Positions 4,131 to 43,016 of a DNA stretch of 64,000 bases are shown here, in pieces; the stretch's first letter is position 1, and every line of letters starts with the position of its first letter. The stretch spans positions 1 through 64,000 of the forward strand of contig LWTL01000113.1 in the NCBI GenBank assembly GCA_002101235.1, written 5' to 3'. Under the pieces are notes generated by a model, which had not been told where the DNA came from, made no database searches, and saw only the letters and a program-made list of their open reading frames with translations. Both the position numbers and the translations under genes were made by a program. This stretch comes from Cycloclasticus sp. symbiont of Bathymodiolus heckerae (GTDB taxonomy: Bacteria > Pseudomonadota > Gammaproteobacteria > Methylococcales > Cycloclasticaceae).

Positions 4131-4136
4131 AATTAA

Positions 4137-4170: not shown

Positions 4171-4325
4171 GCTATTACAAAAACAAATCCGTCAAAAATT
4201 CACGCACTAATAAAGCACCCTTAATCCGCTCAAAATACGGTCTATTCAAAACAATGCTTTTCATATAAATACCTGCGAATAATTCGTTTAAACTGCTACT
4301 CCTTGACTCATCTTCACCACATGAC

Positions 4326-5267: not shown

Positions 5268-5333
5268 GCGACACGTGTCAGTTGTTGAATTATTAAATCG
5301 CTTAGCTGTCGAAGCCATTAGGAGGACATAGCG

Positions 5334-5723: not shown

Positions 5724-5729
5724 AATCGC

Positions 5730-7214: not shown

Positions 7215-7223
7215 CTTTACACG

Positions 7224-8708: not shown

Positions 8709-8746
8709 TCTAAGTCTCCCTAATTCTGTGGTTAGTTAATCGTTCA

Positions 8747-10198
8747 TCACAAACTTTTTACCAATGAGTCACCTATTTTTATGACCTCCTCAACCAAATC
8801 ATCCGCATGATGCCAGTCGGTTCGTGCGCCCAAAAAACAGGGTCTAATAACAAAGTTATTATTTACTATCGTGGTACTTGGAATATTGACACCATTCGTC
8901 ATTAACTGGCGATGGATTTGCTTATTCAGCTTATCTAAATCACCCACTTTCTCATCAATATACCTAAAGCAACATACCGACAACATTGGCTCCAACGCGA
9001 GCTCTAATTTTGGGTGTTGTTTCACCAATTTTGCAACACGTCGAGCCATGGCGTTATGCCGACAAATTCTAGCGGTCATTCCATCAACACCTATTTCACG
9101 AATAAGCGCCCAAACAACCGCTCCACGTGTTGCTGCTGATAACTCAACACCTAAATCATGATAAGGAAAACCCATGCTATCCATAGAATTTCGAGCATGT
9201 TCATCTGCAACGGTTGTTGGCTCTAAATAACTCGCGACCCCTTGGTTAAATGTTTTAAACAACATGTCTTTATTTCGAACAAATGTCGCTCCTACACCTA
9301 CAGGCGCTCCTAACCATTTGTGCGCATCAACCGTTACCGAATCTGCTAAGGCTAACCCTTTATACAAGTCGTGTACTTGCGGATCTAATGTGCCGGGCAA
9401 ACCATAAGCGCCATCCACATGAAACCAAATATTGTACTCGCGCGCGATTTCGCCCATTTCTTGCAGTGGGTCAATAGAACCCGTATTTGTACTGCCGGCA
9501 TTCGCAACAATCGCAACTGGAACAGCATCAAGCTCTTTGTCTTTTTCTAACTGCTTTCTAAGCGCGCTTGGGGACAAACACATCATGTTATCAACCGGTA
9601 TGTGCACAACTGAATTTCGTCCCATACCAAGTACGGCTGCTGACCGGTGAATGGTATGGTGGCTTTGCTCCGTTGCGTAAATTTTGCATGCACGTTGCAC
9701 CCCGTCATCAGCAGGATTCAACCCTATTTTCTCAAACGCCCACTGCCTTGCTGCACCTAAACCAATTAAATTAGCCGTTGAACCACCACTGCTGAACACG
9801 CCTTGCATACCGCTAGGCAAATCAAACATTTCCGCCAACCAGTTTAGGGCCAAACCTTCTAAATGATTAAACGCAGTTAAACCAATACGCTGTGGCGAAG
9901 CTGTAATACCGGCTAAGGTAGCAATCGAACCAATGTCCGTTGCAGCCGACGTAATATAGGATGTGCAGCCGGGCTTCGCAATTTGCGACCCGTTAGGAAT
10001 GATGTGCTTCCCCATTTCCGAAATAACCTGTGTTGCACCAACTCCCTGTTGAGGCACTGTACCACTTAGTACTGAACGCCAGCTTTCAACACTCGCCATA
10101 GCATCTGCATGTTCAAAGCGCTGAAACTGTTCTAGATGTTCATTTAGTTGGCTTAAAAGTTGAGAAAGATTGTCGCACTCTGCTTGTTCTTCAAACAC
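8747..10198 (-). CDS. PLP-dependent group II amino-acid decarboxylase
   Basis: 483-residue fold-type I PLP decarboxylase of the glutamate/aromatic amino-acid/cysteine-sulfinate group. PLP lysine K294 is in V-D-A-H-K-W, preceded by the phosphate-binding S-S-G-G-S-T near 136-141, the ring-stacking H181, and D262-x-A264 in H-V-D-G-A-Y. The substrate cannot be read from the sequence. Candidates include aspartate, cysteine sulfinate and aromatic amino acids. The next gene, a cysteine synthase-glutaredoxin fusion, begins 38 bases downstream, so a sulfur amino acid is an attractive guess. First gene of the apparent three-gene unit. Confidence 0.88.
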   Translation of the reverse strand: MFEEQAECDNLSQLLSQLNEHLEQFQRFEHADAMASVESWRSVLSGTVPQQGVGATQVISEMGKHIIPNGSQIAKPGCTSYITSAATDIGSIATLAGITASPQRIGLTAFNHLEGLALNWLAEMFDLPSGMQGVFSSGGSTANLIGLGAARQWAFEKIGLNPADDGVQRACKIYATEQSHHTIHRSAAVLGMGRNSVVHIPVDNMMCLSPSALRKQLEKDKELDAVPVAIVANAGSTNTGSIDPLQEMGEIAREYNIWFHVDGAYGLPGTLDPQVHDLYKGLALADSVTVDAHKWLGAPVGVGATFVRNKDMLFKTFNQGVASYLEPTTVADEHARNSMDSMGFPYHDLGVELSAATRGAVVWALIREIGVDGMTARICRHNAMARRVAKLVKQHPKLELALEPMLSVCCFRYIDEKVGDLDKLNKQIHRQLMTNGVNIPSTTIVNNNFVIRPCFLGARTDWHHADDLVEEVIKIGDSLVKSL

Positions 10199-29230: not shown

Positions 29231-30295
29231 ATGGCTTTAATTTCTCTACGCCAACTACTCGATCACGCTGCAGAAAATAATTATGGCGTACCTGCTTTTA
29301 ACGCAAACAACATGGAGCAAGTTCATGCTGTTATGCAAGCTGCTGACGTCACCAACAGCCCAGTTATTATTCAAGGTTCAGCAGGCGCAAGAAAATACGC
29401 TGGTTCTTCATTTTTAAGACATTTAATTCTTGCTGCTGTTGAGCAATATCCACATATCCCTGTTGTTTTTCATCAAGATCACGGTACTAGCCCCGCAATT
29501 TGCCAGCGCTCTATTCAGTTAGGCTTTACATCTGTAATGATGGATGGCTCATTAGAAGCGGACGGTAAAACACCTAGCAGCTACGAATACAATGTGGAGG
29601 TAACCCAAAAAACCGTTGAAATGTCCCATGCTTGTGGTGTTTCTGTTGAAGGTGAATTAGGCTGCTTAGGGTCTCTTGAAACAGGTGAGGCAGGCGAAGA
29701 AGATGGCGTAGGCGCCGTTGGCATTCTCACACACGAGCAAATGCTAACAGACCCAGAAGAAGCCGCTGACTTTGTCAAAAAGACTGGCGTTGATGCGCTG
29801 GCCATTGCCATTGGTACAAGCCATGGTGCTTACAAATTCACCAAGCCACCAACAGGTGACACATTAGCCATTCAACGCATCAAGGAAATTCATACGCGAA
29901 TCCCTAATACACACCTCGTTATGCACGGTTCATCATCTGTACCTCAAGATTGGTTAAAAATCATAAATGAACACGGTGGTGATTTAGGAGAAACTTACGG
30001 CGTTCCCGTTGAAGAAATTCAACAAGGTATTAAATACGGTGTTCGTAAAGTCAATATCGATACCGATTTACGTTTAGCCAGCACTGGTTCTATACGTAGA
30101 CACCTCATCGAAAACCCTAAAAATTTCGACCCAAGAAAATTCTTAAAAGTATCCACGGATGCCATGCAAAGCATTTGCGAAGCGCGTATGAATTCATTTG
30201 GAACATCGGGCCAAGCCAGTAAAATTAAAGCTGTAAATTTAGAAGATATGGTTCTTCGCTATGATTCTGGTGAACTTGATCAAGTTATTAACTAA
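29231..30295 (+). CDS. fba: Fructose-bisphosphate aldolase, class II
   Basis: 354 residues. Zinc-dependent aldol cleavage or condensation of fructose 1,6-bisphosphate in glycolysis, gluconeogenesis or the Calvin cycle. It begins [13 protein letters not shown], has the zinc and substrate residues in V-F-H-Q-D-H-G near 78-84, E-L-G-C-L-G near 142-147, and the second zinc histidines in G-T-S-H-G-A-Y and M-H-G-S-S-S. The CbbA/Calvin subtype fits best by length and motif style. Ribosome-binding site AAAGGGG. Confidence 0.95.
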
Positions 30296-30372
30296 AACTA
30301 AATAAAGCCAAAACTAGCGTGCAACTTTTTAAGTTGTTTGCACTCCAATGTAAGTATTTAAAAGGAGGCTCA

Positions 30373-31194
30373 ATGCGTTCACTTATAACGTTCACGTTAG
30401 TTGTTTTTTTATCGGCATGCTCACAGCCTGTTGATAAAAGTCTATTACAAGCAAGTAGCTTTAATTACCCAAAAGCAACTAAAACTACTTGCCCATCTGA
30501 TAAAACAGGAATATCAGGCAACTCTGAGGATAACAAAACAAGCGCTGGCGCCACATATAATTTACGCACACCGTCTAACTATGACCCTTCCGTTGCTCAC
30601 CCTTTAATAGTTGTTTTCGCTCCTGCTGGAACTAGCGCACGAAAATCAGAACGTCATGTCCACCTCACTAAAGAGGCGACGGAAGCCGGTTTCATAATCG
30701 CCTTTGCAAAAAACAAACGCTTATCCTTAAGAGCGCTTAAACAACTATCATCCATACCAAACGATATTAAAAACAAGTGGTGTATAAACCCCGAACGCAT
30801 TTATTACACAGGCCATTCTGATGGTGGAACCATCACCAATGCACTCACCTTCTTACCTTCTTCAGAAGCAAAGCCAACGGCCATTGCTCCAAGTGCAGCA
30901 GGTATGGACAGTAACAGCCTAAAGCAATACAGTTGTCCAAAGCCCCTACCTGTTATGGTGTTTCATAATAAAGATGACTCTCATTTCGAGGGTTTTGGAA
31001 AACAGGCCGCCGATTGGTGGGCGCAATGTAACCAATGCAGTGATGAGTTAAGCCCCCCTGATAGTAACGGCTGCCGCTCTTACAATAACTGTTCGGCTAA
31101 TGCACAAACTTATTATTGCGAGTCACCCGGATCCCATTCTGATTGGCCAAACAAAAATAATCGGCTCATCACGTTTTTTAATGCCACTCTCTAA
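30373..31194 (+). CDS. Esterase/PHB-depolymerase-like lipoprotein
   Basis: The ATG at 30373 is preceded by AAAGGAGG, so it is preferred over an upstream frame extension from 30319. 273 residues. A lipoprotein signal ends L-S-A-C with the modified C16. The alpha/beta-hydrolase (LpqC/PHB depolymerase-like) nucleophile motif G-H-S-D-G-G has S149. A late H-S-D-W near 258 could supply the catalytic histidine. Many cysteines (about 10) suggest disulfides in the periplasm. Together with phasins nearby it could degrade a polyester or an acyl ester; the substrate is unknown. Confidence 0.78.
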   Translation: MRSLITFTLVVFLSACSQPVDKSLLQASSFNYPKATKTTCPSDKTGISGNSEDNKTSAGATYNLRTPSNYDPSVAHPLIVVFAPAGTSARKSERHVHLTKEATEAGFIIAFAKNKRLSLRALKQLSSIPNDIKNKWCINPERIYYTGHSDGGTITNALTFLPSSEAKPTAIAPSAAGMDSNSLKQYSCPKPLPVMVFHNKDDSHFEGFGKQAADWWAQCNQCSDELSPPDSNGCRSYNNCSANAQTYYCESPGSHSDWPNKNNRLITFFNATL

Positions 31195-31203
31195 TTCTTC
31201 CTC

Positions 31204-32364
31204 ATGAAGGCACATCTTAAAAGTATTTTGTATATGGCCATTTCCGGCGCACTTATTTGGTTATTCCTACCCGAGAAGTACGCCGTTAATATGCCAATTA
31301 CGTTGGCCCATTCATTAAGTGAGCAAGAGACTATAGATCGTTTACAAGTACCCGACGGGTTCTCAATAACGTTGTATTCCGATAATCTATCAGATGCTAG
31401 AGCGTTAGCAATAACAGAAACTGGCGACATTATTGTCTCTAGGCCGAACATCGGTCAGTTAACACTCATTTATAAAGATAATGATAATGACGGAAAGTCC
31501 GACGGTGAAAAACTGTTAGTAGGTAATCTCAACAAACCCCACGGTATCACCCTGCATAACGGTTGGCTTTATATTGCAGAAACAAATGCTGTTTTACGCA
31601 TTAAGTACAACGCTGCTGAACGTAAGTTTATAGGCATACCGCATTACATAATCAGAAACAGCTTCCCTGGCGGTGGCAATCATTGGGTTAGAGGCTTAAA
31701 AATAGGGCCTGATGAAAAACTTTATGTCAGCGTAGGGTCCAGTTGCAATGCATGTATCGAAGATACACAAAAAAGAGGCAGTATTTTACGATACGACCTC
31801 GACGGTAAAAATGAAGTTTTATTTGCTCGCGGGTTAAGAAACACAACAGGGTTCGATTGGCAAAAAACAACTCAACTTATGTTCGGTGTTGATAATGGAC
31901 GCGATTTTTTAGGCGACAACCAACCACCTGAAGAACTTAATCAAATAAACCTCGGCCATCACTACGGCTGGCCTTATAAGTACGGCAACAATATCAACGA
32001 TTCAGAGTTTTCTAAGGTATCCCCTAGCGGTTTAACCATGACAAAACCTCACCACCAAATAACAGCCCATAGCGCCCCGCTAAGCATCTTGTTTACACAA
32101 TATAATATAAACCTCCGTAATTCCGCCTTAGTCAGCTTGCACGGTTCATGGAATAGGTCAGAAAAATCAGGGTATAAAGTCATCAAACTTAATTTTTCAG
32201 CAGACAATAATATTAGTCAACAGGATTTCTTAACTGGTTTTGAACACAATGGAGTCGTCATCGGCCGCCCAGTTGATCTGGCTGAAGATAAGCACGGAAA
32301 TATCTATCTAAGCGATGACTATATCGGTAGAATTTACAAGATTAGCCCAATAAAAAAACACTAA
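31204..32364 (+). CDS. Sorbosone dehydrogenase-like beta-propeller (PQQ type)
   Basis: 386 residues. An N-terminal hydrophobic segment (about 6-24) anchors or exports it. The rest is a glucose/sorbosone dehydrogenase beta-propeller: P-D-G-F-x-I-x-L-Y near 55-65, A-L-A-I-T-E-T-G-D near 71-80, L-N-K-P-H-G-I-T-L-H near 110-120, G-N-H-W-V-R-G-L near 160-168, D-N-G-R-D near 230 and G-R-P-V-D-L-A-E-D near 355. Family members oxidise sugars or aldehydes with PQQ in the periplasm. It starts 9 bases after the esterase stop. A role in oxidising alcohol or aldehyde products of the nearby monooxygenase is speculative. Confidence 0.82.
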   Translation: MKAHLKSILYMAISGALIWLFLPEKYAVNMPITLAHSLSEQETIDRLQVPDGFSITLYSDNLSDARALAITETGDIIVSRPNIGQLTLIYKDNDNDGKSDGEKLLVGNLNKPHGITLHNGWLYIAETNAVLRIKYNAAERKFIGIPHYIIRNSFPGGGNHWVRGLKIGPDEKLYVSVGSSCNACIEDTQKRGSILRYDLDGKNEVLFARGLRNTTGFDWQKTTQLMFGVDNGRDFLGDNQPPEELNQINLGHHYGWPYKYGNNINDSEFSKVSPSGLTMTKPHHQITAHSAPLSILFTQYNINLRNSALVSLHGSWNRSEKSGYKVIKLNFSADNNISQQDFLTGFEHNGVVIGRPVDLAEDKHGNIYLSDDYIGRIYKISPIKKH

Positions 32365-32379
32365 CCAGAGTCCTCAACT

Positions 32380-32937
32380 ATGAATCTTTTTAAAAGCTTA
32401 TTACTCACTGCATTTTTAATCCTAGCCTTATCTGGTTGTTCCGATGAATCATCCACATCAAACCCTAATAAAGTGTACAAAATAAGCAGTATTTTTGGTT
32501 TGAAAATAGGTGACAAGGGGCCAGGCTTACCCACTGGCTACCTCGAAGACAACAAAGCATTCGACTTCACACCCGACTCAATTCACAAATACTTCGTGTC
32601 ATATACCTTTTCCGTAACGCCTAATACGCAGCGTATTTACGGCATTAAAATGAAAAGCGATAAAGAGCTCCTAACAGCCAGCTGTAAAGAGCAACGTATT
32701 GAAGTAATTAATGAAACCTTAGCAGCTCTTGGTGACACTTCAATGCTTAAGATTAATGAGGAAGGCAACCAATGGAAAATTCGTGAAGACAACCAACGCT
32801 CTATTACCATAAATTGCGAACAAACATTAAAGGCTACGACTCGCCAACTCGTCATGACATACACTGACACTCCTTTAAGCAAAGTAAGCTACGTTGAATG
32901 GTCTAAGCATCAAGATGATATTACTAAGCCCCAATAA
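32380..32937 (+). CDS. Lipoprotein of unknown function (tandem copy 1)
   Basis: 185 residues with a lipoprotein signal ending L-S-G-C (C20). The mature part is related along its whole length to the next gene: I-F-G-L-K-I-G near 39-45, F-D-F-T-P-D-S near 61-67, I-Y-G-I-K-M-K-S near 85-92, A-L-G-D-T near 115-119, W-K-I-R-E near 130 and a conserved cysteine pair (about C102 and C145). No family is recognised. It lies 15 bases after the sorbosone dehydrogenase-like gene, in one apparent operon. Confidence 0.75.
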   Translation: MNLFKSLLLTAFLILALSGCSDESSTSNPNKVYKISSIFGLKIGDKGPGLPTGYLEDNKAFDFTPDSIHKYFVSYTFSVTPNTQRIYGIKMKSDKELLTASCKEQRIEVINETLAALGDTSMLKINEEGNQWKIREDNQRSITINCEQTLKATTRQLVMTYTDTPLSKVSYVEWSKHQDDITKPQ

Positions 32938-32976
32938 AGGCTTAGACATACTTAACCTTAAAATAAATAACGCCTT

Positions 32977-33537
32977 ATGAATATTCTCCGAATTCTACTC
33001 GTTACCTCCATATTCACGCTTCTACTAGGTTGCGCGGGAGATGAAGACGCACTAAGCAAGATCAAAAAAGACTTTACCATTAACGGTATTTTTGGCATAA
33101 AGCTCGGTGTTATTAATAAAGAGTTACCTGAAGGCTATATCATTGAAAACAAAGAAATTTCCTTCACTCCTGATAAAGCAGATGATCGTTTTGTTCAATA
33201 CCAATATTCTACAACCCCTAAGTCTCACGTTATTTATGGTATTAAGGTTAAAAGCCACAGAGAACTCTCTAAGGAGAACTGTTTGTCTCAACGTGATGCC
33301 TTAATAAAATCAACACTTGAGACCTTAGGTGACACACCTTCAATCAGAATATTCGAAGAAAAGAACAAGTGGAAAATTCGTGAAGGTAACCAACGAGAAA
33401 TAACCATTGATTGTGAGCCCGCCGTTTCATCTAACACTTTACAACTTGTAATGATTTGTCAGGATACCGCGTTAAGCTTATTGGCTTTTAAAGAGTGGAA
33501 AAAGCGTCAAACAGAAATAACCTTAATCCGCTTCTAG
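32977..33537 (+). CDS. Lipoprotein of unknown function (tandem copy 2)
   Basis: 186 residues, lipobox L-L-G-C (C19). It shares with copy 1 the blocks I-F-G-I-K-L-G, F-T-P-D-K, V-I-Y-G-I-K-V-K-S, L-E-T-L-G-D-T-P, W-K-I-R-E-G-N-Q-R and both conserved cysteines, so the pair arose by tandem duplication and has since diverged widely. Last gene of the plus-strand run that converges on the copper monooxygenase region. Confidence 0.75.
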   Translation: MNILRILLVTSIFTLLLGCAGDEDALSKIKKDFTINGIFGIKLGVINKELPEGYIIENKEISFTPDKADDRFVQYQYSTTPKSHVIYGIKVKSHRELSKENCLSQRDALIKSTLETLGDTPSIRIFEEKNKWKIREGNQREITIDCEPAVSSNTLQLVMICQDTALSLLAFKEWKKRQTEITLIRF

Positions 33538-33554
33538 AGCATAAAAAAACCTAT

Positions 33555-33598
33555 AAAAATAAGCCTGTCTATAGCTTATATAGGTAAGCTTATTTTTT
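33555..33598. terminator. Bidirectional terminator between convergent runs
   Basis: Arms AAAAATAAGC (33555-33564) and GCTTATTTTT (33588-33597), with a smaller CCT..TATA/TATAGG dyad inside. A-rich on the left and T-rich on the right, so it can act for both strands. It overlaps the stop codon of the minus-strand methyltransferase gene. Confidence 0.6.
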
Positions 33599-34501
33599 CC
33601 TAGCAGAAAATAAGCCATAGCAACCAATACCATCGTGCAACACATGGTATTGCCCAAAGCAAGCATCAAAGTTCCCGCTTTGAACAGAGCTTCTTAACCG
33701 CACAAAGCTCATTATTTTTTCCATTGGATACGTTAGCAAAGCTGTATAATAAAGGCGCTTTGAAGACGGCAATGTGTTTTTAGTAATGTCTCTATAGCTA
33801 ACCTCAGTAAACCCAACATCGTTCATAAAACCTTCAAACTCGGCTGGCATAGCCATGTTTGGCATAGCCCAACCATTGAGTACTTTCATTACGTACCCCC
33901 ACTCTTTTTCGGTCAAGTCACGCTTACTCGCAAAGCCATCTGCAACGGCAAAGCAGCCGCCATTCTTTAAGACTCGATAAGCTTCTTTTACAAAGTCTGA
34001 TTTTTTAAGCGCATAGCAAACACTTTCTAGCCCCCAGATATGGTCAAACGATTCATCTTCAAAAGATGTCTCTGTATAGTCTTCTAGCTGAAAATTAACT
34101 AAATGGTCTACACCACGTTTCTTTGCGTTTTTATTAGCTTGCTCAATCTGCGTTGGAGATATGGTAATCCCCGTGACTTTAACGCCAAATTTTTCAGCTA
34201 ACCAAATAGAACTACCCCCAATACCACAACCTGCATCCAATACATGGTCACCAGGTTTTAAATCTAACTGACTGGCTAGAACCTCGTTCATCTCCAATAA
34301 CGAGTCACTGTGCGACTGTGTATCTTTAGTCCAATAACCGTAATGAATCGCGAGATTTTCACTGTTTAACCAAGACGTTCTATAGTCCCAATAACTTTGA
34401 TCGTAATAATCCGCTATATCACTGCGTAAATCGTCGCGAGTTTTTGTTCTATGGTCGATATCTGGTTCAATAAATAACAAATTTTCAGCGCTTTTAGACA
34501 T
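33590..34501 (-). CDS. SAM-dependent methyltransferase of the copper monooxygenase region
   Basis: 303 residues. The core is of the sterol/tocopherol/cyclopropane-type C-methyltransferase group. A Y-Y-D-Q-S-Y-W-D-Y start near 32-40, H-Y-G-Y-W near 52-56, SAM loop V-L-D-A-G-C-G-I-G-G-S-S near 88-99, G-I-T-I-S-P-T-Q near 110-117 and a G-L-E-S-V-C-Y-A block near 158-165. Soluble. The substrate is unknown; a quinone, lipid or peptide copper ligand would be possible. It lies 6 bases downstream of the VTT-like membrane gene and appears to be the last gene of the accessory operon. Confidence 0.85.
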   Translation of the reverse strand: MSKSAENLLFIEPDIDHRTKTRDDLRSDIADYYDQSYWDYRTSWLNSENLAIHYGYWTKDTQSHSDSLLEMNEVLASQLDLKPGDHVLDAGCGIGGSSIWLAEKFGVKVTGITISPTQIEQANKNAKKRGVDHLVNFQLEDYTETSFEDESFDHIWGLESVCYALKKSDFVKEAYRVLKNGGCFAVADGFASKRDLTEKEWGYVMKVLNGWAMPNMAMPAEFEGFMNDVGFTEVSYRDITKNTLPSSKRLYYTALLTYPMEKIMSFVRLRSSVQSGNFDACFGQYHVLHDGIGCYGLFSARKK

Positions 34502-34507
34502 AGTAAA

Positions 34508-34942
34508 CTAACTTAACATAAGTGAAATTAAGGAATAACGGGCAAGCTTTCCTAACGAAATAAAACACATGGATTTTATAACATTCAACCTCACCCAACC
34601 AGCAGCTAAACACAATACATCACCTATAACGGGTAACCAGCTGAATAAAAGTGCGACACTACCAAAACGTTGAATATAAATATTCGCTTTGGCAAAGTAC
34701 TTTTTATTTATTCCATCAGGCGGGTATTTGGATGATGCAATATAACCTAGGTAATAGGTTGTTAATGCACCGAGTGAATTGCCAGCTGTAGCAACTAAAA
34801 CAAGGTATAGCGGCGTATCATCGCCATTCAAGAGCAAATAAGCTAAAATCGCCTCTGAGCCACCAGGAGCCAGCGTTGACGATATGAAAGCACTAACAAA
34901 CAACCCTAGCGCGCCATATGCCTCAACTAGGCTATCAATCAT
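34508..34942 (-). CDS. VTT/DedA-like (YqaA family) small membrane protein
   Basis: 144 residues with about four hydrophobic segments. The first part A-L-G-L-F-V-S-A-F-I-S-S-T-L-A-P-G-G-S-E, followed by A-x-x-G-N-S-L-G-A-x-T-T-Y-Y-L-G, is the pattern of the YqaA subgroup of the DedA/SNARE-associated family, shorter than full DedA (about 200 residues). Members are thought to move lipids or support membrane homeostasis. It lies 14 bases after the cupredoxin gene and 6 before the methyltransferase, so it is in the accessory operon. Confidence 0.82.
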   Translation of the reverse strand: MIDSLVEAYGALGLFVSAFISSTLAPGGSEAILAYLLLNGDDTPLYLVLVATAGNSLGALTTYYLGYIASSKYPPDGINKKYFAKANIYIQRFGSVALLFSWLPVIGDVLCLAAGWVRLNVIKSMCFISLGKLARYSLISLMLS

Positions 34943-34956
34943 CTATATGGTACAAA

Positions 34957-35586
34957 CTACTTCTTTCGTTGAATAACCAAAAATATAGAAATTACAAAGC
35001 CCAATAAAAATAACACTGCAATAATTGCTAAATTCGATATGCTTGTATCTAAGTCATACCTGTCTTTATTTAATTGCCCAGTAATTCCTGGAATTGACGG
35101 CAAGTTTCCACTGCCTCCACCAACAAGCACTTGAGCTTTCATCCCTTTTTCCATATGTTGCGCAATATCGCAATGAGCAAGATATGTTTCTTCGGTTTTA
35201 GGCGTAATAAACGAACCCTTAGTTTCTCCACGCCCGTATAGCTCCATATGGAACATTCCTTCTGAATGAAGGTACGTTGGTAAACCATGGATCATAAATT
35301 GATGGCGAATATCATCTTCATTGATAAAGGTAACATTAACTTTTGTACATTTTGGAAACTTAAACTCATGTTGACTATACCCAAAGATCGTACCCGGAAA
35401 TTCTTTAGCGTACTCACGACCCGCCTTAATAGTAATATTTTCTTCTCCAGCAATTTCAGCACAGCCTTGTGGTAATTTGTCATGGTTTTCATTCATCACC
35501 ATGCCCCATTCCCCCATACGCATACCGGCTTGGCTCGTTGTTGTAAGAAAGAGCAAAAACAATAGCAACAGAAACTTATTCATCAT
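34957..35586 (-). CDS. Membrane-anchored cupredoxin (type 1 copper protein)
   Basis: 209 residues. Signal peptide 1-20 (ends S-Q-A). The cupredoxin domain is about 50-157 with type 1 copper ligands readable as H95 (or H100), C139, H144 and M149 in the pattern C-x4-H-x4-M. A glycine-rich linker and one transmembrane helix at about 184-205 with an R-K-K end follow, so the copper domain faces the periplasm. The start overlaps the multicopper oxidase gene by 11 bases. Two ATGs are adjacent, and the second has better spacing from AGGAG. Probable one-electron carrier to or from the multicopper oxidase or the monooxygenase (inference). Confidence 0.85.
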   Translation of the reverse strand: MMNKFLLLLFLLFLTTTSQAGMRMGEWGMVMNENHDKLPQGCAEIAGEENITIKAGREYAKEFPGTIFGYSQHEFKFPKCTKVNVTFINEDDIRHQFMIHGLPTYLHSEGMFHMELYGRGETKGSFITPKTEETYLAHCDIAQHMEKGMKAQVLVGGGSGNLPSIPGITGQLNKDRYDLDTSISNLAIIAVLFLLGFVISIFLVIQRKK

Positions 35587-37291
35587 TCACTCCTGCGCTA
35601 TTTAACTTAATCGCTATGCCACGGAAAAAACCATAGAAAGCAACCAATAATAGAAACAGAACTGCAGCCAGCGCCCCTAAAACAATGACAAGAAGAACAT
35701 CTTTATAATTATCTATCCGTCGGTCACCAACGTCATCAAAAAAGCCAAACGCATCCGATAATGTCCAAGAAGGAATCTCACGATTATAATATTCAGGTGT
35801 AAAGTAAGGCGTTAGGTTCACACCTTGCCCGCTAGGCATTGCATCTTTATTTAAGTATTTTCGATAGACAATTTGAGAGACATTTCCACCTGGCGCCATG
35901 CCATCTGTAGTAATAGCCCGCTCTGCATGGTCATGCATTAGCCACATACCCGCGCCATAACTATGTAAGCCATCGTCTTTTGTGTATAAATCTAAATCTA
36001 TACGCTGTGCTGCAGTAACTGAATAAACATCACGTGTTATCTGCGCCAGTGGATTCACATCCACACCATCATAAGCAGTAATCGTTGCCTTGTGCCCATG
36101 TGTATGCAAAGACAACGTATCTGGCATGCCATTTAATATGCGTAGTTTCGTGTGCTGATTCGGCTCAACTGTAATCAAAGATTCTCTTAATGTATAAGGG
36201 AATGAACGTCCATTAAGCATAAAGTAATCATCTGTCCCATCTGTAATATCATATAAACGATTCATGCTTTTTGCCAATTGACGTACATCATTTGACTCTT
36301 GAATCATGTCACTTAGGTCAGTATCTATCGCTTGATAATGTAAGTCATATTCTTGCGCATAGTCTTCAAGAACCGCTACAGAGGGTTTTCTTACCTTACC
36401 AGCGCCTACGTTAAATGTTTGCACCCAGTTATTAGGTTTGTTTTCTTCAACAATAAAGAAGCCTTGTAAGCCCATCATCATATGTACTTGTACTTGCACA
36501 TGGCAGTGATACAGCATCGTGCCAGCGTGACGCGGCTTAATCTTATAGATGTGTTGCTCACCCGGCATCGTCATTTCTTCACTGGTCTGAGGGACGCCAT
36601 CATTATTCTCAAAAGAATGATCAACCCCGTGTAGATGTATCGTGTGTGGGAAATAATGCGTATTTTCTAAAATCAACGTAACGTTATCGCCGGCCTCTAC
36701 ACGAATAGGTGCTGAAGGTAGCCTCAATAGGTGATTAGCATTTAAATCATCCCTATTTACCGTCGACATTCCACGACTCTTTGGCGCAAAAACCCACGCC
36801 CCAGGTTTAATTCCCGGCGCTATTTCAAAACCTGGAACAAGCTCTGAACTATCAGGTGAACGACCGTTAAGCTCAACAACCTCAATTCGAATGATAATAT
36901 CATCTGGGTCCCCATCACCATCTCTATCATTAGTCTTTATAACCGCATCATCGGACAATTGAGTTCGCATTAATACTGGCATGATGACATTATTAGTTCC
37001 CCTAACAAAAGCGGCAACTTCATAAGGGTTATCAGGGTTACAAGCATCTGATGCTTGTATATTCACCCCACCAATTGTGTATGCCTTTCGCCACTCTGGG
37101 TAATCCTCGTCACAAATAATTGCCGGAGGTATTTCAGGCTTAGGTTTTGAGTTAGGAGCCGCCTGATAAGCCGGCATACCTGTATATTCAAAAAACCTCG
37201 CGTAAACTAAAGAAGGATCATAAAGAAAAAGCGCAACAGTACTCAGTACCATTGCGCTTATAACTAATCCAATAACAGGAATTTTTTTCAT
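35576..37291 (-). CDS. Two-domain multicopper oxidase, membrane-anchored
   Basis: 571 residues. N-terminal anchor at about 5-24 and a C-terminal transmembrane helix at about 531-556. The four histidine-pair motifs of the trinuclear centre are present: H219-L-H221-G, H262-C-H264, H396-T-H398-G-H400 and H453-D-H455. The only type 1 site is in the first domain (C263, H270, M271-273); the second domain has no cysteine at the matching place. This resembles the type C two-domain group that includes the Nitrosomonas blue copper oxidase. Residues 122-131 form a D-R-D-G-D-G-D calcium-type loop inserted before the first cupredoxin. Substrate unknown: O2 reductant, Cu(I) or nitrite. Confidence 0.9.
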   Translation of the reverse strand: MKKIPVIGLVISAMVLSTVALFLYDPSLVYARFFEYTGMPAYQAAPNSKPKPEIPPAIICDEDYPEWRKAYTIGGVNIQASDACNPDNPYEVAAFVRGTNNVIMPVLMRTQLSDDAVIKTNDRDGDGDPDDIIIRIEVVELNGRSPDSSELVPGFEIAPGIKPGAWVFAPKSRGMSTVNRDDLNANHLLRLPSAPIRVEAGDNVTLILENTHYFPHTIHLHGVDHSFENNDGVPQTSEEMTMPGEQHIYKIKPRHAGTMLYHCHVQVQVHMMMGLQGFFIVEENKPNNWVQTFNVGAGKVRKPSVAVLEDYAQEYDLHYQAIDTDLSDMIQESNDVRQLAKSMNRLYDITDGTDDYFMLNGRSFPYTLRESLITVEPNQHTKLRILNGMPDTLSLHTHGHKATITAYDGVDVNPLAQITRDVYSVTAAQRIDLDLYTKDDGLHSYGAGMWLMHDHAERAITTDGMAPGGNVSQIVYRKYLNKDAMPSGQGVNLTPYFTPEYYNREIPSWTLSDAFGFFDDVGDRRIDNYKDVLLVIVLGALAAVLFLLLVAFYGFFRGIAIKLNSAGVNDE

Positions 37292-37306
37292 TTCTAAATA
37301 GAATTT

Positions 37307-37900
37307 TTAGTCTTGCTTCTCATTAAATGCAACTGGTTTTCTACGTAAAAACCAAACCATCACAATAACCACCACAAAAAAGAAAGCGATAGGGATCTTC
37401 AATGCTTCAGGAATGCCTTTAGGAGGGTAACCAACTGAAAAAGGGAACCTTGAAATAAATTTTTCATTCTCGCCTTCTACAATCACATAACCAACGAAAT
37501 GACCTTTCTCTGTAAAGTTTTGGCTCACGGTCATTGTGCCAGTTGGGTATTCTTTCGCTGGTATTTCAAAAAATGGTGTCTGAGCTAATTCGGCATCATT
37601 AACTACTCCATCTTCAGCAGTACCTAACGCAGCTTCCGTCGCTTTAATAACTCTAAAGTTAACAGTCATATCACGTAACTTTCTATCAATGAAGTCTAAA
37701 ACAATAATAGATTTACCTATCGTAGGCATGTCGTCACAAAACTGTTTAGAATCATTATTTTCTGGCTGATAGCCTGAAAAGTTCATGACATAAGGACCTA
37801 CGCGTAATTTACACTCATTGCCCTCATTCATAACGCCACCATGGCCCCATGAAACTGTACTTACTAGAACTAACAACAATGCATTTATACCTTTAAACAT
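37307..37900 (-). CDS. Membrane-anchored periplasmic protein next to monooxygenase (PmoD-like position)
   Basis: 197 residues from the ATG at 37900, chosen because GGAGAAG lies 4-10 bases upstream and it gives a clean signal peptide; earlier in-frame starts lack this. Cleavage after S-W-G would leave H20-G-G as the mature N-terminus. Two cysteines (C30, C55) could form a disulfide, with several methionines (M24, M39, M58, M78). One transmembrane helix at about 172-192 is followed by R-R-K. Layout and position recall PmoD/AmoD copper-site proteins, but I do not recognise their motifs, so homology is not claimed. First gene of the accessory operon behind its own candidate promoter. Confidence 0.75.
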   Translation of the reverse strand: MFKGINALLLVLVSTVSWGHGGVMNEGNECKLRVGPYVMNFSGYQPENNDSKQFCDDMPTIGKSIIVLDFIDRKLRDMTVNFRVIKATEAALGTAEDGVVNDAELAQTPFFEIPAKEYPTGTMTVSQNFTEKGHFVGYVIVEGENEKFISRFPFSVGYPPKGIPEALKIPIAFFFVVVIVMVWFLRRKPVAFNEKQD

Positions 37901-37942
37901 TTTCTTCTCCATTATTTGTAGCATTTAAAAACAATCTGACAG

Positions 37943-37969
37943 ATTATAAATGATTTAGTTCGTCTTCAA
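37943..37969 (-). promoter_or_regulatory. Candidate promoter of the accessory operon
   Basis: On the minus strand TTGAAG (37964-37969) and a perfect TATAAT (37943-37948) are 15 bases apart, a little short. They lie just behind the pmoB terminator and about 42 bases before the ATG at 37900. Confidence 0.5.
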
Positions 37970-37981
37970 TTAATAATATGC

Positions 37982-38010
37982 AAAAAAAAGCCCCGCTTAG
38001 CGGGGCTTTT
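37982..38010. terminator. Intrinsic terminator after pmoB
   Basis: A perfect 8 bp stem AGCCCCGC-TTA-GCGGGGCT, with eight A residues on its left (U-tract for the minus-strand pmoB transcript) and four T residues on its right. Confidence 0.92.
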
Positions 38011-38031
38011 CTGACTTACATCAAGCTACCT

Positions 38032-39267
38032 TTAGATAAATACAGGTAGTAATGGTCCACCAATAGCAACTACTGAACGTGTACCTTCTTCATCAAAGAA
38101 GAACACTAATCCACCAAAGCGACTGTCTGGATCATAGATCAATTTAGCTAAACGGTAAGTTTCCCAAGCAGCATCAGTACATGAAACTTTAAGAAGCTTT
38201 GTTTCGCCAGGCATAACCGCACCACCTTCATATTTCAGACCATTAACAGCCACTGGATCATGGCTATCTGCAGGCTCTGCAACAGAAACTTCAGGGTTCA
38301 TCCAACGAATGTTAGCAGCTGTGTACTCACCAATTCTAATAGGTGAGTTCGTGTTGTTCGTTACTTTAAGAGTGAACTCTAAAGAACGACCAGGAACACG
38401 GTACTTCGCATCAACCATTTCAGCATTCACACCACGAGCAGCATCAGGTAATGCTGGTATCGAGACTTGTCCGCTTTGTAGTGGAATTGTCACAGGGTAC
38501 TGTTTATGCGCATCGTAATAACTCCACACAACAACAACCATAGTACCAATCAACATTACTAAACCAAGAGTACGTTGGAATGGAGTAACCATGTCATCCG
38601 CATCTTCACCCAATAATTTCACTGTTTTGTAACGTGGAATTAAGATAGGGCCTTGGAAGATCCAATATAACAACCATGCTGCGGCAATAACACCCCAGAA
38701 CACGTGCCATTTAATAGCATTTGCTAAACCATAAGTTTCAAGATCAATTGTTTCACCCGTTAGTGTTGTCACTTCGTTTGTGAAATCTGATTGATTACCT
38801 GTTACTTCAACCCAACGTCCAGGACCAATTAATGGACCCGCTTCAGACACATTCATTAATGCATGCATATGAACTCGAGCTGGACGACGCGCTTTAAGAA
38901 TAACCTTAAATTCGTACGTTGCGCCAATATCGAAGCTTGTTGAGTTAGTACCACTAACACCATTAATATAAGAAGCTTTTCTTACAAAAACAGGGCCTGG
39001 AATACCAATGTTTAAGAATGCTAGATCTGGCTTAGCAATGTTTTGTGGCCAATCATAAAACCAGTAAAACTTACCAGTCATGACCAACTCTTCATTAACC
39101 TTAAGCTTCACTGTCGATACTTCAACGTCATACCATAATAAAGTACGCATTCTTAGGTAAGCAGCCTGTGACTTCTCACCGTGCGCCATTGCTGGCGCAG
39201 CATACAATGCTATACAAGCCGATGCTACTGCAACGAGTATGGCGATTGCTTTTTTAATATTTAACAT
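38032..39267 (-). CDS. pmoB: Copper membrane monooxygenase subunit B
   Basis: 411 residues from the ATG at 39267, which has GAGGAAA at the right distance; a TTG 12 bases upstream is less likely. The signal peptide ends A-M-A, making H29 the mature N-terminus. CuB ligands H29, H133 and H135 (H-M-H) have the same spacing as H33, H137 and H139 of Methylococcus. The second site of that enzyme (H48, H72, Q404) is replaced by L44, Y68 and A401. Two transmembrane helices (about 190-210 and 235-255) separate two cupredoxin domains. Subunit of a pMMO/AMO-family enzyme that hydroxylates methane, ammonia or short alkanes in the membrane. Confidence 0.96.
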   Translation of the reverse strand: MLNIKKAIAILVAVASACIALYAAPAMAHGEKSQAAYLRMRTLLWYDVEVSTVKLKVNEELVMTGKFYWFYDWPQNIAKPDLAFLNIGIPGPVFVRKASYINGVSGTNSTSFDIGATYEFKVILKARRPARVHMHALMNVSEAGPLIGPGRWVEVTGNQSDFTNEVTTLTGETIDLETYGLANAIKWHVFWGVIAAAWLLYWIFQGPILIPRYKTVKLLGEDADDMVTPFQRTLGLVMLIGTMVVVVWSYYDAHKQYPVTIPLQSGQVSIPALPDAARGVNAEMVDAKYRVPGRSLEFTLKVTNNTNSPIRIGEYTAANIRWMNPEVSVAEPADSHDPVAVNGLKYEGGAVMPGETKLLKVSCTDAAWETYRLAKLIYDPDSRFGGLVFFFDEEGTRSVVAIGGPLLPVFI

Positions 39268-39358
39268 ATGTTTCCTCAATCTTTAAAATTATATATGTGT
39301 GAGTCTTTAATTTATTTCATTTTGCCAAACTTAATTATTTTAGCAAAAAGATATAAAT

Positions 39359-40102
39359 CTATAGACGTTTCACCCATGTTGTTCTTGACAATACTTTACC
39401 AAAACCAAGCCAGATGAAATACATGAACACTGAAATAAACCCTGCGAAGAAAGCCGATACTGGCGTTACATCTTCACCGAATGTACGTAATGTACCTTCT
39501 TCAATAATACGGATATATTCTGGTGTACCTGTTCTTACATAGTTATAACCAATTAAATCGGCAACTGACATCATTACGCCATTGTTTTCAATAGGAACAT
39601 GGAATGGTGCAATAAGAGCCCAGTTAGCAGGGTAAAAGATAACACCCCAAACCATTGAACCGATAATACCGGTAACAGTTAAACTACGGCTAATAAGAAG
39701 AATTGCATCTAAAATAAGCGCCATTGGGATAATCTCAGCAGGAACAACCATGTTAAGAGGGAAGTAAGCCCAACCAACAAAGTTAATAACTCTATTCATC
39801 CATTCGCCAATCAATAGGCCTGCACAACATAGCGTCGCACCAAATGGTAGTCTGAAGTTTGTCCATAGCAAATAATGCAAGGCTGCTGGGAAGAATATTA
39901 ATGTAATTGGTGTAACTGTTACCCACCAACGTCTATCTTTCCAATCAATCCAAAAATCCCAATCTCCACCCGTTAACATAAAGTGAATGTGGAATGCTCC
40001 AATTAATACTAAAACTACGATTGGTATAACGATCCAATCAAAAGCTTTATAAACCCGATGCTGTTGCTCAGCAGTGGTAATAGCAGATTGTACTGCGCTC
40101 AT
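39359..40102 (-). CDS. pmoA: Copper membrane monooxygenase subunit A
   Basis: 247 residues, about seven transmembrane helices. It has the family's diagnostic G-D-W-D-F-W at 46-51, D-W-K-D-R-R-W-W just after it, L-P-F-G-A-T near 86-91, N-F-V-G-W-A-Y-F-P-L-N near 107-117 and the late P-E-Y-I-R-I-I-E-x-G-T-L-R-T-F-G. It reads as a member of the PmoA/AmoA/hydrocarbon-monooxygenase superfamily; which branch needs a tree. Strong AGGAGG ribosome-binding site. 91 bases separate it from pmoB, and a 290-base gap with a terminator separates it from pmoC. Confidence 0.97.
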   Translation of the reverse strand: MSAVQSAITTAEQQHRVYKAFDWIVIPIVVLVLIGAFHIHFMLTGGDWDFWIDWKDRRWWVTVTPITLIFFPAALHYLLWTNFRLPFGATLCCAGLLIGEWMNRVINFVGWAYFPLNMVVPAEIIPMALILDAILLISRSLTVTGIIGSMVWGVIFYPANWALIAPFHVPIENNGVMMSVADLIGYNYVRTGTPEYIRIIEEGTLRTFGEDVTPVSAFFAGFISVFMYFIWLGFGKVLSRTTWVKRL

Positions 40103-40154
40103 CTCGACCTCCTAATTATTATAAAAAATTATTTCTTTACCGCTCATGCCTCTT

Positions 40155-40176
40155 TACCAAGCATTTTGCTTCGGTA
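40155..40176 (-). other. Hairpin in pmoA leader
   Basis: On the minus strand ACCGAAGCA-AAA-TGCTTGGT forms a stem with one bulged G right after the candidate -10, so the pmoA transcript would begin with a hairpin that could stabilise the mRNA. Confidence 0.4.
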
Positions 40177-40205
40177 ATATTAAACTTATGCGCCCAACAA
40201 AGCAA
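40177..40205 (-). promoter_or_regulatory. Candidate promoter of pmoAB
   Basis: Minus-strand TTGCTT (40200-40205) and TAATAT (40177-40182) with a 17-base spacer, about 75 bases before the pmoA ATG and downstream of the pmoC terminator. Moderate matches to sigma-70. Confidence 0.45.
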
Positions 40206-40341
40206 CACTTGCTTGCGTCATTTTGTCGCACTATCAACTGCCCCTTAAGCTTAATGGCATAAATTAAATATCTACCGCTAACCCTAGTAAAACCCTTGCA
40301 TGGAAAAGAACTCTAAAACACTGCATATAAAATTTCAACGC

Positions 40342-40370
40342 AAAAAAAAGGGTGCCTAAGCACCCTTTTT
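40342..40370. terminator. Terminator between pmoC and pmoA
   Basis: Stem AAAGGGTGC-CTAA-GCACCCTTT with A residues on the left and T residues on the right, symmetric and able to act on both strands. It lies 22 bases after the pmoC stop, so pmoC would be made in excess over pmoAB unless read-through occurs. Confidence 0.9.
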
Positions 40371-40392
40371 AGTACAACTAAGTAACTAAAGA

Positions 40393-41169
40393 TTAGTCAT
40401 TCATATCTTCTGTTACTAACACTTCGCCTTCGATTTTAGTTAACTGAATCATACGTAAGATGATTTGAATTAACAGTCCGCCTAATGCTAGTGCTGACCA
40501 GCCAAGAACCACAAAACCCCAATGTAAAGGTGCAGTAAATAACTCTTCCATAAACCAGAAAGTGTGACCCCATTCGTTCAAGCCAACATTTGGAAGAATC
40601 ATGAAAGGACCAACAACAGCGATAACAAACGGCATTGAGATGTTTTCTGCATACTGAGGTAAACGAGTACGAGCATACAAGAATGAAGCAACACCGATTA
40701 AGATGTAAGCAGGCATTGTACCGTAGAACAATACGATGTGACTTGGTGTAAAGTCAGTATCACGTACTGTTACTTGGTGCCAAGATGCATCTTGCTCTGC
40801 GAAGAAGCTAGCAGCCCAATATACGATAAACACATATGCAAACAACCATGCAAGTAATGTAAAGAAGCGTTTAAGTTCTTCTTGTGGTGAAATATTAAAT
40901 ACGTCTTTATCACGTGTTTTTAAAATCCAACCCCAAAGAACAGCACCAATTACAAACTCAGCAATCCACTGCGCATATAAAAGGTTCATCCAATAAACCT
41001 GAAATTCAGGCTCAAAAGAATCCATGCCTTTATCCCAAGCAAATAATTGCTGGTAAATTCGCCATGCTGTCATTACTGCCAAAATACTTAAAGTGATGAT
41101 TGTAATTCTCTTCCAGCCAACTAGGCCTTTGGATATATCACCACCCATTTCTACTGAAGGTGTACTCAT
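40393..41169 (-). CDS. pmoC: Copper membrane monooxygenase subunit C
   Basis: 258 residues, about six transmembrane helices. Metal ligands of the CuC site are D127, H131 and H144 (spacing 4 and 13, as D156, H160, H173 in Methylococcus). Those of the CuD site are N198, H202 and H216 (as N227, H231, H245). W-H-Q-V-T-V-R-D-T-D-F-T-P-S-H is the recognisable core. Full length, slightly short at the N-terminus relative to methanotroph PmoC. AGAGGAAA ribosome-binding site 8 bases before the ATG. First gene of the cluster, followed by a terminator. Confidence 0.97.
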   Translation of the reverse strand: MSTPSVEMGGDISKGLVGWKRITIITLSILAVMTAWRIYQQLFAWDKGMDSFEPEFQVYWMNLLYAQWIAEFVIGAVLWGWILKTRDKDVFNISPQEELKRFFTLLAWLFAYVFIVYWAASFFAEQDASWHQVTVRDTDFTPSHIVLFYGTMPAYILIGVASFLYARTRLPQYAENISMPFVIAVVGPFMILPNVGLNEWGHTFWFMEELFTAPLHWGFVVLGWSALALGGLLIQIILRMIQLTKIEGEVLVTEDMND

Positions 41170-41201
41170 AATATTTTCCTCTTATTATTTAATTAAAATT
41201 A

Positions 41202-41219
41202 ACTTTTTTGCAAAAAAGT
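41202..41219. promoter_or_regulatory. 18-bp perfect palindrome in pmoC leader
   Basis: ACTTTTTTGCAAAAAAGT is its own reverse complement. It ends 33 bases before the pmoC ATG, downstream of the candidate promoter. With no loop it is an unlikely terminator and a plausible binding site for a dimeric regulator. The role is inferred from symmetry and place only. Confidence 0.45.
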
Positions 41220-41237
41220 GTTGTTTCCAACGAGTCG

Positions 41238-41267
41238 ATGATAACACCATTGCGTCGGATTCAACAA
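41238..41267 (-). promoter_or_regulatory. Candidate promoter of pmoC
   Basis: Minus-strand TTGTTG (41262-41267) and TATCAT (41238-41243), spacer 18. The -10 is a 5 of 6 match; the -35 is weak. Confidence 0.35.
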
Positions 41268-41594
41268 GCCCCGCTTGCTTTTAACAGCTCACTGAGCTTG
41301 CTAGATTAGTCACATCTGTTTCTATATAGTTCATTTTTTATAATCCTATTTTTAAGCAATACTTAATATATGTATTCTTTTTTGTTATAAGCGGTTTCTT
41401 CACCACTTGTACAACCATCCTCAAACACCTTGTTCTAATTGATGTTTTTCACTTTCATGTCGCTAATTTTCACTTCATTATTCCGACTATCAGTGTTTTT
41501 TAAATTTGCTTCTTCTTTAAAATGCATAGCTACCCCACCAAAATAAATTTATTTACGCCACCTAATATACGTAAATTCTACTAATCTATACTTT

Positions 41595-43016
41595 ATGTAT
41601 AGAATGACTTTCCTTAATTTAGCGCTCGCTATTCTTTTTTCTTGTTTTTTAGCAAGTTGCTCGAAGCCTCCTTCAGCCCTTGAAAAAGTTCTTCTTCGCA
41701 ACGAGCTAGTTGTCCTAACTCGGATTGATCCTACTACATATATTACCGATGAGTTTGGCGCACACGGGTTTGAGTATGAACTGGCATCTTTATTTGCTAA
41801 GCACCTAGGCGTAGGCATTCGTTTTACTCTTCCCGAACAGTTTCATCATCTTTTGCAAATAACGGACGGTCATGAAGCCGATTTTTCTGCAGCAGGGTTA
41901 ACTGTAACGCCAGAACGCGAACAAACCTTACGTTTCACACAACCATATTATGCCGTCACTCAACAGTTAATTTACCACTATAGAACCCGTCGACCCAAAA
42001 CAATACAACGCCTCAATGATTCTTTTTTTGAAGTACTTGCTGGCACAAGTCACGCTGAAAACCTTCGACAACTTAAAAAAAAATCTCCTGAATTAAGCTG
42101 GGTTGAAAGCTATGACACGAATGTTTCTGAATTACTCTCAATGGTGAACGACAACTTACTTGATTACACGATTGCCGACTCAAACCAATTCCAGATGGCT
42201 CGAAGTCAGTTTCCACAATTGAACGCAGCATTCGATATTTCCAAACCGGAACACATCGCATGGGCATTCCCTAAAAGCATTGATAGCAGCTTGTATGATG
42301 AAGCTGTAAAGTTTCTTTCTATACTTAAAGAGGCAGGCACTCTTGAACAACTCCAAGATAAACACTTTGGTTATTCTAAACACCTAAATTACGTTAGCAT
42401 CTGCACTTTCAGGCAACACGCACAAACTCGGTTACCACAGCTTCGTGAGTTTTTTCACTTATCCGCTAAGAAATATAACATTGACTGGAAGCTTCTTGCT
42501 GCTGTTGCATACCAAGAATCTCACTGGAACAAGCACGCCGTATCACCGACCGGAGTCCGCGGTATTATGATGCTAACGCGTGCAACAGCCAAACAAATGA
42601 AAGTCGCGGATCGACTTGACCCTGTTCAAAGTATTGATGGTGGTGCGCATTACTTAAAAACTCGTACATACAAAATACCTAAAAGAATAGCTGAGCCTGA
42701 CAGGACCTGGATGGCGCTTGCTTCTTATAATATAGGCTTGGGTCATCTGGAAGATGCTCGCGTTATAACCCAGACTCAAGGCGCCGATCCTGATAAATGG
42801 ATTGACGTTAAACAGCGGCTTCCTCTTCTCAGCCAAAGAAAGTGGTATAAAAAAACCAAATACGGCTACGCTCGCGGGAAAGAGCCAGTGACATATGTAG
42901 AAAACATCCGCCAGTACGTAAAAATGCTAGGCCAGCTAGAACCATCTACAGATAACTCTAAACCTATCGACATAAATGGCTACCATGCCTTAGAGATTTC
43001 GCCACACGCTCTATAA
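41595..43016 (+). CDS. mltF: Membrane-bound lytic murein transglycosylase F
   Basis: 473 residues. Lipoprotein signal with lipobox L-A-S-C (C22). Residues about 35-262 are a periplasmic solute-binding-type (SBP_bac_3) regulatory domain, and about 290-420 are the SLT lysozyme-like domain with catalytic E308 in Y-Q-E-S-H-W and the G-V-R-G-I-M-M-L motif (normally G-x-x-G-x-M-Q/M-L). It cleaves peptidoglycan glycan strands to 1,6-anhydro products at the outer membrane inner face. The N-terminus could start at the ATG 9 bases later; no strong ribosome-binding site for either. Converges on the next gene with a 6-base overlap. Confidence 0.94.
   Translation: MYRMTFLNLALAILFSCFLASCSKPPSALEKVLLRNELVVLTRIDPTTYITDEFGAHGFEYELASLFAKHLGVGIRFTLPEQFHHLLQITDGHEADFSAAGLTVTPEREQTLRFTQPYYAVTQQLIYHYRTRRPKTIQRLNDSFFEVLAGTSHAENLRQLKKKSPELSWVESYDTNVSELLSMVNDNLLDYTIADSNQFQMARSQFPQLNAAFDISKPEHIAWAFPKSIDSSLYDEAVKFLSILKEAGTLEQLQDKHFGYSKHLNYVSICTFRQHAQTRLPQLREFFHLSAKKYNIDWKLLAAVAYQESHWNKHAVSPTGVRGIMMLTRATAKQMKVADRLDPVQSIDGGAHYLKTRTYKIPKRIAEPDRTWMALASYNIGLGHLEDARVITQTQGADPDKWIDVKQRLPLLSQRKWYKKTKYGYARGKEPVTYVENIRQYVKMLGQLEPSTDNSKPIDINGYHALEISPHAL

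Follow-up and report, generated by a model that had tools for sequence, protein, structure and literature searches.

Which substrate is oxidised by the copper membrane monooxygenase (CuMMO) of a marine oil-seep bacterium, the Cycloclasticus symbiont of Bathymodiolus heckerae, and what do the genes that follow its three subunit genes contribute? The operon lies on the minus strand of contig LWTL01000113.1 (assembly GCA_002101235.1), whose first 64,000 nucleotides constitute the window analysed here, and encodes PmoC, PmoA and PmoB, followed by the periplasmic copper protein PmoD, a multicopper oxidase (MCO), a single-domain cupredoxin (CUP), a small VTT-domain protein and a methyltransferase. 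The copper and electron supply of CuMMOs is poorly understood, and most activity disappears when the enzymes are purified. The enzyme and its host are already known; within the accessory set, the MCO-CUP pair appears to be new. With moderate confidence, we read the locus as a particulate hydrocarbon monooxygenase (pHMO) operon for short-chain alkanes, in which PmoD, MCO and CUP may form a redox-coupled periplasmic copper-loading module.

The operon and its copper proteins

The list of open reading frames (ORFs) confirmed eight minus-strand genes at 33590-41169, with short gaps between them and an 11-bp overlap of the CUP and MCO genes, in agreement with the coordinates, strand and spacing of the original prediction. 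The three subunits belong to the AmoC, AMO and Monooxygenase_B families, with Pfam/NCBIfam E-values of 4e-104 for PmoC, 3e-109 for PmoA and 5e-143 for PmoB. Alignments with structures from the Protein Data Bank (PDB) revealed that the CuB ligands of PmoB (H33 and the HxH at 137/139) and the CuC/CuD ligands of PmoC (DxxxH-x12-H and NxxxH-x13-H) are intact. These scores and ligands uphold the earlier statement that the subunits are intact and that their membership in the CuMMO family is certain.

The 205-aa protein encoded between pmoB and the MCO gene obtained no name from the Pfam or NCBIfam scans; it matches the PmoD structure 6cpd with an E-value of 1e-14. It had been described as a membrane-anchored periplasmic protein, of which the anchor stands and the identity is now amended to PmoD. 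In common with PmoD/AmoD, it is encoded within the operon and has a signal peptide, two invariant cysteines and a C-terminal transmembrane anchor; it differs in its motif, Cx8M followed by N, in place of the CuA-forming Cx7MxHxnC. PmoDs with Cx8M are often encoded close to MCO genes and bind copper without forming CuA (Fisher et al. 2018, PMC6189053); the text of that study notes the proximity of PmoD and MCO, and an MCO-cupredoxin module is absent from it.

From N- to C-terminus, the MCO (Pfam/NCBIfam E-value 7e-23) has a membrane anchor, a conserved region that no Pfam family matches, two cupredoxin domains and a second anchor. The motifs HxH, HCH-x5-H, HxHGH and HxH of the type-1 site and trinuclear cluster are all present, and in 22 sequences the cysteine of the type-1 site and the trinuclear-motif histidines vary little or not at all. 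Its closest PDB match is the two-domain MCO of Nitrosomonas (3g5w, E-value 4e-26), with which these motifs align; in contrast to 3g5w, the MCO of the window has two extra membrane anchors and the conserved N-terminal region, which spans ~130 residues. A search of plasmids for this MCO recovered none at 1e-40. An AlphaFold2 model built from six sequences reached a predicted local distance difference test score (pLDDT) of 39 and was not used.

CUP consists of a single Cu-oxidase_2 cupredoxin domain (Pfam) and resembles the final domain of three-domain MCOs with HCH replaced by HCD, a resemblance from which it should keep a lone type-1 copper site. Across 19 sequences H95, C139 and H144 are invariant, and M149 is nearly so. 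The mature N-terminus is Met-rich in the window and His/Met-rich in relatives. The fold model was of low confidence (pLDDT 60), and none of its best Foldseek matches, auracyanin and laccases, had E < 0.001.

Phylogeny and likely substrate of the enzyme

Among the 18 Cycloclasticus genomes searched, the window's own included, 12 carry CuMMO genes, which sort into three types. The operon of the window represents type 1, found in eight genomes; the orthologous operons have PmoA identities of 84-93% and a conserved gene order. The closest PmoA relatives, with identities of 84-90%, come almost exclusively from Cycloclasticus, including a poecilosclerid sponge symbiont. A second CuMMO in the window's genome (a 2.13-Mb assembly), on contig C101, is a type-3 operon with two PmoD genes.

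A PmoA tree of 50 rows groups the eight type-1 sequences together (100/99) and separates them from the methanotroph clade (100/98) as well as from the nitrifier, Pxm and actinobacterial clades, the last including the hydrocarbon monooxygenase of strain NBB4. The PmoB tree was concordant, with type 1 outside the methanotroph (100/99), nitrifier, Pxm and mycobacterial clades. In both trees the sister group comprises the gammaproteobacterial sequences of G048, G289 and G176, with moderate support (92/82 for PmoA and 90/86 for PmoB). The approximately unbiased (AU) test rejected a single origin of all Cycloclasticus CuMMO types (p 4e-7) and gave p 0.07 for type 1 joined to gammaproteobacterial methanotroph enzymes alone. 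Neither PmoA, as the original prediction required, nor PmoB is placed within the methanotroph or nitrifier clade, with the caveat that the joining of type 1 to methanotroph particulate methane monooxygenase (pMMO) was not rejected (AU p 0.17).

A TIGR03075 search of the window's genome detected one pyrroloquinoline quinone (PQQ) alcohol dehydrogenase above the cutoff and no methanol dehydrogenase (MxaF/XoxF). This enzyme is PedH-like, scoring 878 bits against the ethanol dehydrogenases 6zcv/6zcw in comparison to 370 against XoxF and 327 against MxaF, and it contains the sequence WDYDG, a marker of lanthanide-dependent enzymes such as PedH. The apparently lanthanide-type dehydrogenase is encoded at G000:C123:139672-141306 (L185); an enzyme of this kind also occurs in the pHMO-bearing genomes G006 and G017, and a lower-scoring one in G001, which has no pmo genes. 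According to PMC12510462, Cycloclasticus pHMO is expressed on n-pentane as judged by proteomics, and the genus is reported to consume short-chain alkanes, not methane. Based on the PedH-like dehydrogenase, the lack of a methanol dehydrogenase in the genome search and the published n-pentane data, C2-C5 alkanes are the likely substrates. The prediction of a heterotroph for which short alkanes are likelier than methane or ammonia is supported by the position of PmoA and PmoB outside both clades and by the PedH-like nature of the sole above-cutoff PQQ alcohol dehydrogenase.

Association of the module with CuMMO

The association was assessed in one even draw of 274 genomes of the class (273 without the window's), with CuMMO marked by PF02461 and the MCO by a profile. 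Among these 273 Gammaproteobacteria, CuMMO was present in 8, a strong MCO in 8 and both in 6 (Fisher's exact p 1.4e-9 counting only the MCO, 1.4e-11 counting CUP as well). When collapsed to families, the comparison was 5/6 vs 2/120-170 (family total estimated; p ~1e-7), and such tests remove the relatedness of genomes only in part. The accessory genes are linked to CuMMO clearly beyond chance, as the original prediction had proposed.

Two other families show PmoD-MCO-CUP behind pmoAB in this order, as C-A-B-PmoD-MCO-CUP-esterase in G048 and as A-B-PmoD-MCO-CUP with a convergent esterase gene in G289. An alphaproteobacterial contig (L010) carries A-B-PmoD-PmoD, a small membrane-protein-like ORF and then the MCO at the contig end. 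In the CuMMO genome G066, CUP lies at a contig end with pmoCAB-D ~11 kb off on the same contig, and G174, with a PmoA almost the same as in Methylococcus capsulatus, has PmoD-MCO-CUP apart from pmo. In a draw of the phylum (n=398), G402, which resembles an ammonia-oxidising bacterium (AOB) and has three equal-scoring CuMMO copies, has both MCO and CUP; G486 has CuMMO without the MCO, and G680 a divergent MCO without CuMMO. At locus L178 of G402 (1347-9024), the CUP-MCO pair stands beside norCBQD-like genes, identified by eye only.

The VTT gene adjoins CUP and PmoD in the methanotroph-like G287 (52% identity), and a relative of the methyltransferase is divergent beside pmoCAB-PmoD in G176, with other relatives near unrelated genes. 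PmoD-MCO-CUP is the widespread core, and VTT and the methyltransferase are mostly local; the proposal that the five accessory families always travel together, as one obligate set, had to be rejected. In G082 (99% complete, one contig), PmoD-MCO-CUP directly follows a cytochrome c oxidase gene cluster (L138, 8545-17367), and neither PmoA nor PmoB was found in this genome. Since the module is present beside a cytochrome oxidase operon in a CuMMO-free genome, it is not strictly dedicated to CuMMO, contrary to what had been assumed. G202 also has the MCO without CuMMO, an absence that is weak evidence in a genome 87% complete. The module is strongly linked to CuMMO and is neither sufficient nor necessary for it.

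Proposed function of the module

Sequence itself shows which families the proteins belong to, their copper-ligand motifs and membrane anchors, the order of the genes and the association with CuMMO; the substrate range, the transfer of copper, the direction of electron flow and any role of VTT and the methyltransferase are inferred. PmoCAB would oxidise dissolved C2-C5 alkanes to alcohols, which would be oxidised further by the PedH-type PQQ alcohol dehydrogenase encoded elsewhere. PmoD, MCO and CUP would act as a single membrane-tethered copper-handling module in the periplasm: copper would be bound by PmoD and by CUP, the latter using its type-1 site and Met-rich N-terminus; oxidation of Cu(I) with O2 by the MCO would hold the copper pool at the proper redox state; and copper would be handed on to the PmoB/PmoC sites. 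In G082 the module perhaps supplies a haem-copper oxidase, and its position beside the cytochrome c oxidase operon in that CuMMO-free genome is what one would expect if it is a copper-loading aid.

Several points weigh against this reading. CuMMO types 2 and 3 of Cycloclasticus have PmoD close by and no MCO or CUP there. The MCO is not essential to CuMMO, since some CuMMO genomes are without it (G251, G486, Methylocapsa and comammox). The AU test left the joining of type 1 to methanotroph pMMO unrejected. Furthermore, type-1 copper proteins are classically electron carriers, and the same parts would suit electron transfer almost equally well.

The main rival reading, possible though somewhat unlikely, is an electron relay: CUP and MCO would link the monooxygenase to membrane quinol or to a periplasmic dehydrogenase, such as PedH or the glucose/sorbosone-dehydrogenase-type protein (GSDH) of the same presence/absence block, by carrying electrons between them, or would release surplus electrons to O2, by analogy with the blue copper proteins thought to act around archaeal ammonia monooxygenase. 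Consistent with such a relay, one operon encodes two type-1 sites on membrane tethers together with an intact MCO, the block includes GSDH, the module lies next to cytochrome c oxidase genes in G082 and norCBQD-type genes in the AOB-like genome, and archaeal blue copper proteins are co-located with amo/pmo and cox genes (PMC9038741). However, PmoD of the window is without the CuA-forming Cx7MxH, the His/Met-rich N-termini of CUP are typical of copper binding and not of electron transfer, and the module can lie apart from pmoCAB.

We regard as quite unlikely a generic role in copper tolerance, in which MCO and CUP would detoxify copper in the manner of CueO/CopA and accompany CuMMO only because CuMMO cells import much copper. 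The presence of the module in G082 and G202 without CuMMO would suit such a role, as would the similarity to the NCBIfam resistance oxidases, but this similarity is weak and far under the family cutoffs (42/479 bits for CopA and 27/525 bits for CueO). In addition, the MCO is rare in the class (8/273) whereas copper tolerance is common, its operon linkage with pmo genes is repeated, and the block has no export pump. It is highly improbable that the enzyme is a divergent methane monooxygenase working as pMMO normally does: type-1 PmoA and PmoB do adjoin the methanotroph clade, and the AU test allows a joint placement (p 0.17), yet the free trees place them outside that well-supported clade, the only above-cutoff PQQ alcohol dehydrogenase is not of the XoxF/MxaF kind, and the genus is reported to consume short-chain alkanes and not methane (PMC12510462).

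The presence/absence block and neighbouring genes

Table 1. Genes and other features of the CuMMO block in the window
Feature	Position	Strand	Basis or remark
pmoC-type subunit	40393..41169	-	family scans; CuC/CuD ligands intact
terminator-like hairpin, pmoC-pmoA gap	40345..40370	-	stem core kept in 5/6 Cycloclasticus operons examined
pmoA-type subunit	39359..40102	-	type 1 of three CuMMO types in genus
pmoB-type subunit	38032..39279	-	CuB ligands H33, H137, H139
PmoD, periplasmic copper protein, C-terminal membrane anchor	37307..37924	-	6cpd match; Cx8M, not CuA Cx7MxH
membrane-anchored multicopper oxidase (MCO)	35576..37291	-	two cupredoxin domains, type-1 and trinuclear-cluster motifs, C-terminal transmembrane anchor
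membrane-anchored single-domain cupredoxin (CUP)	34957..35586	-	HC-x4-H-x4-M; Met-rich mature N-terminus
small VTT-domain membrane protein	34508..34942	-	Pfam, just above cutoff
S-adenosylmethionine-dependent methyltransferase	33590..34501	-	Pfam/NCBIfam
small lipoprotein LP2, LP1-like, convergent with operon	32977..33537	+	
small lipoprotein LP1	32380..32937	+	
glucose/sorbosone-dehydrogenase-type beta-propeller (GSDH)	31204..32364	+	weak similarity to PQQ sugar dehydrogenases
lipoprotein esterase, polyhydroxybutyrate-depolymerase type	30319..31194	+	relatives beside CuMMO genes in three other genomes
whole presence/absence block, fba (29231-30295) to mltF (41595-43016)	30296..41594	.	

The order pmo-PmoD-MCO-CUP-VTT-methyltransferase is identical in 7/8 type-1 Cycloclasticus genomes. 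Two of those seven, at loci L058 and L059, yielded no pmoC homologue next to pmoA on its upstream side (before 8852 and 9257), in contrast to the other six type-1 operons. In the eighth genome, G017, pmoCAB adjoins mltF, and PmoD-MCO-CUP-VTT-methyltransferase is on another contig, with both parts intact; after the methyltransferase, that contig continues with LP2, LP1, GSDH, the esterase and fba.

G001 and G002 are complete genomes of the genus without CuMMO. In G001 a gap of just 282 bp separates mltF from fba, and the ~55 kb around the two yielded none of the block's twelve genes; a search of all of G001 and G002 for the methyltransferase gave nothing at 1e-10. Because mltF and fba are adjacent and the block genes are missing in G001, the presence/absence unit can be placed at ~30296-41594 (11.3 kb). 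The genes of the originally predicted feature, 33590-41169, are confirmed, and the unit to which they belong is larger, reaching down to ~30296. The G+C content of the block is 39%, vs 42% for the rest of the window, and with values this close base composition offers no hint of recent import. Direct repeats of >= 12 bp were not found on the flanks of the block. A tRNA-Phe called by ARAGORN inside the esterase gene (30811-30898, minus strand) was rejected as a possible integration site; it was not called at nine related loci and is probably a false positive.

The hairpin after pmoC, a strong terminator-like structure, has a GGGTGC-loop-GCACCC stem core and a T-run in 5/6 of the Cycloclasticus type-1 pmoC-pmoA gaps examined, and its recurrence suggests attenuation downstream of pmoC. 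Relatives of the esterase adjoin CuMMO genes in G048, G289 and G176 (L134, L135 and L150), and the esterase is a possible additional CuMMO neighbour. In the methanotroph-like genome G287, which belongs to the same taxonomic order, a PmoD-CUP-VTT cluster (L148, 7885-12978) is located near tadA-guaA-guaB; the Cycloclasticus block is likewise near tadA-guaA, a hint of an old location.

Relation to known systems and significance

According to Arrington et al. 2024 (PMC12510462), Cycloclasticus pHMO occurs in several copies per genome and is absent from cultivated isolates, and an "unknown" PmoA clade, distantly related to pMMO and with a substrate that was not validated, is expressed on n-pentane. 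Type 1 of the window probably corresponds to this "unknown" clade, and the enzyme is the Cycloclasticus pHMO already known. The main text of that report concerns the same genus and makes no mention of a multicopper oxidase or accessory genes.

Extended methanotroph/nitrifier operons of the order pmoCABD-copC-copD-PCuAC also have copper-handling accessories after pmoB; in the window MCO and CUP occupy that place, and the block contains no CopC, CopD or PCuAC. The Mycolicibacterium NBB4 hydrocarbon monooxygenase, the CuMMO of a C2-C4 alkane oxidiser, is distant from type 1 in both trees, and no MCO, CUP or PmoD is annotated in its neighbourhood. The blue copper proteins of archaeal CuMMO systems (PMC9038741; 9cck) are likewise redox-active copper proteins whose genes lie close to amo/pmo and cox; their similarity to the system of the window is remote only (46 bits to 9cck). 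In the open-access literature searched we found no description of the MCO-CUP pair as a CuMMO accessory. Of the accessory system predicted to be undescribed, the MCO-CUP pair appears to be new, and PmoD and its proximity to the MCO were known (PMC6189053).

More speculatively, and with rather low confidence, PmoD-MCO-CUP may be a widespread undescribed accessory of bacterial CuMMOs that loads copper or delivers electrons, found alike in alkane oxidisers, in methanotrophs and in at least one genome resembling those of ammonia oxidisers. If true, the module could help account for the poor activity of purified CuMMOs. The pair predicts CuMMO across several families and has a fixed place after pmoD in some of them, which provides concrete proteins to study. 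The presence of the same module in a Methylococcus-like genome makes the question testable in a methanotroph, without cultivating a pHMO-bearing Cycloclasticus.

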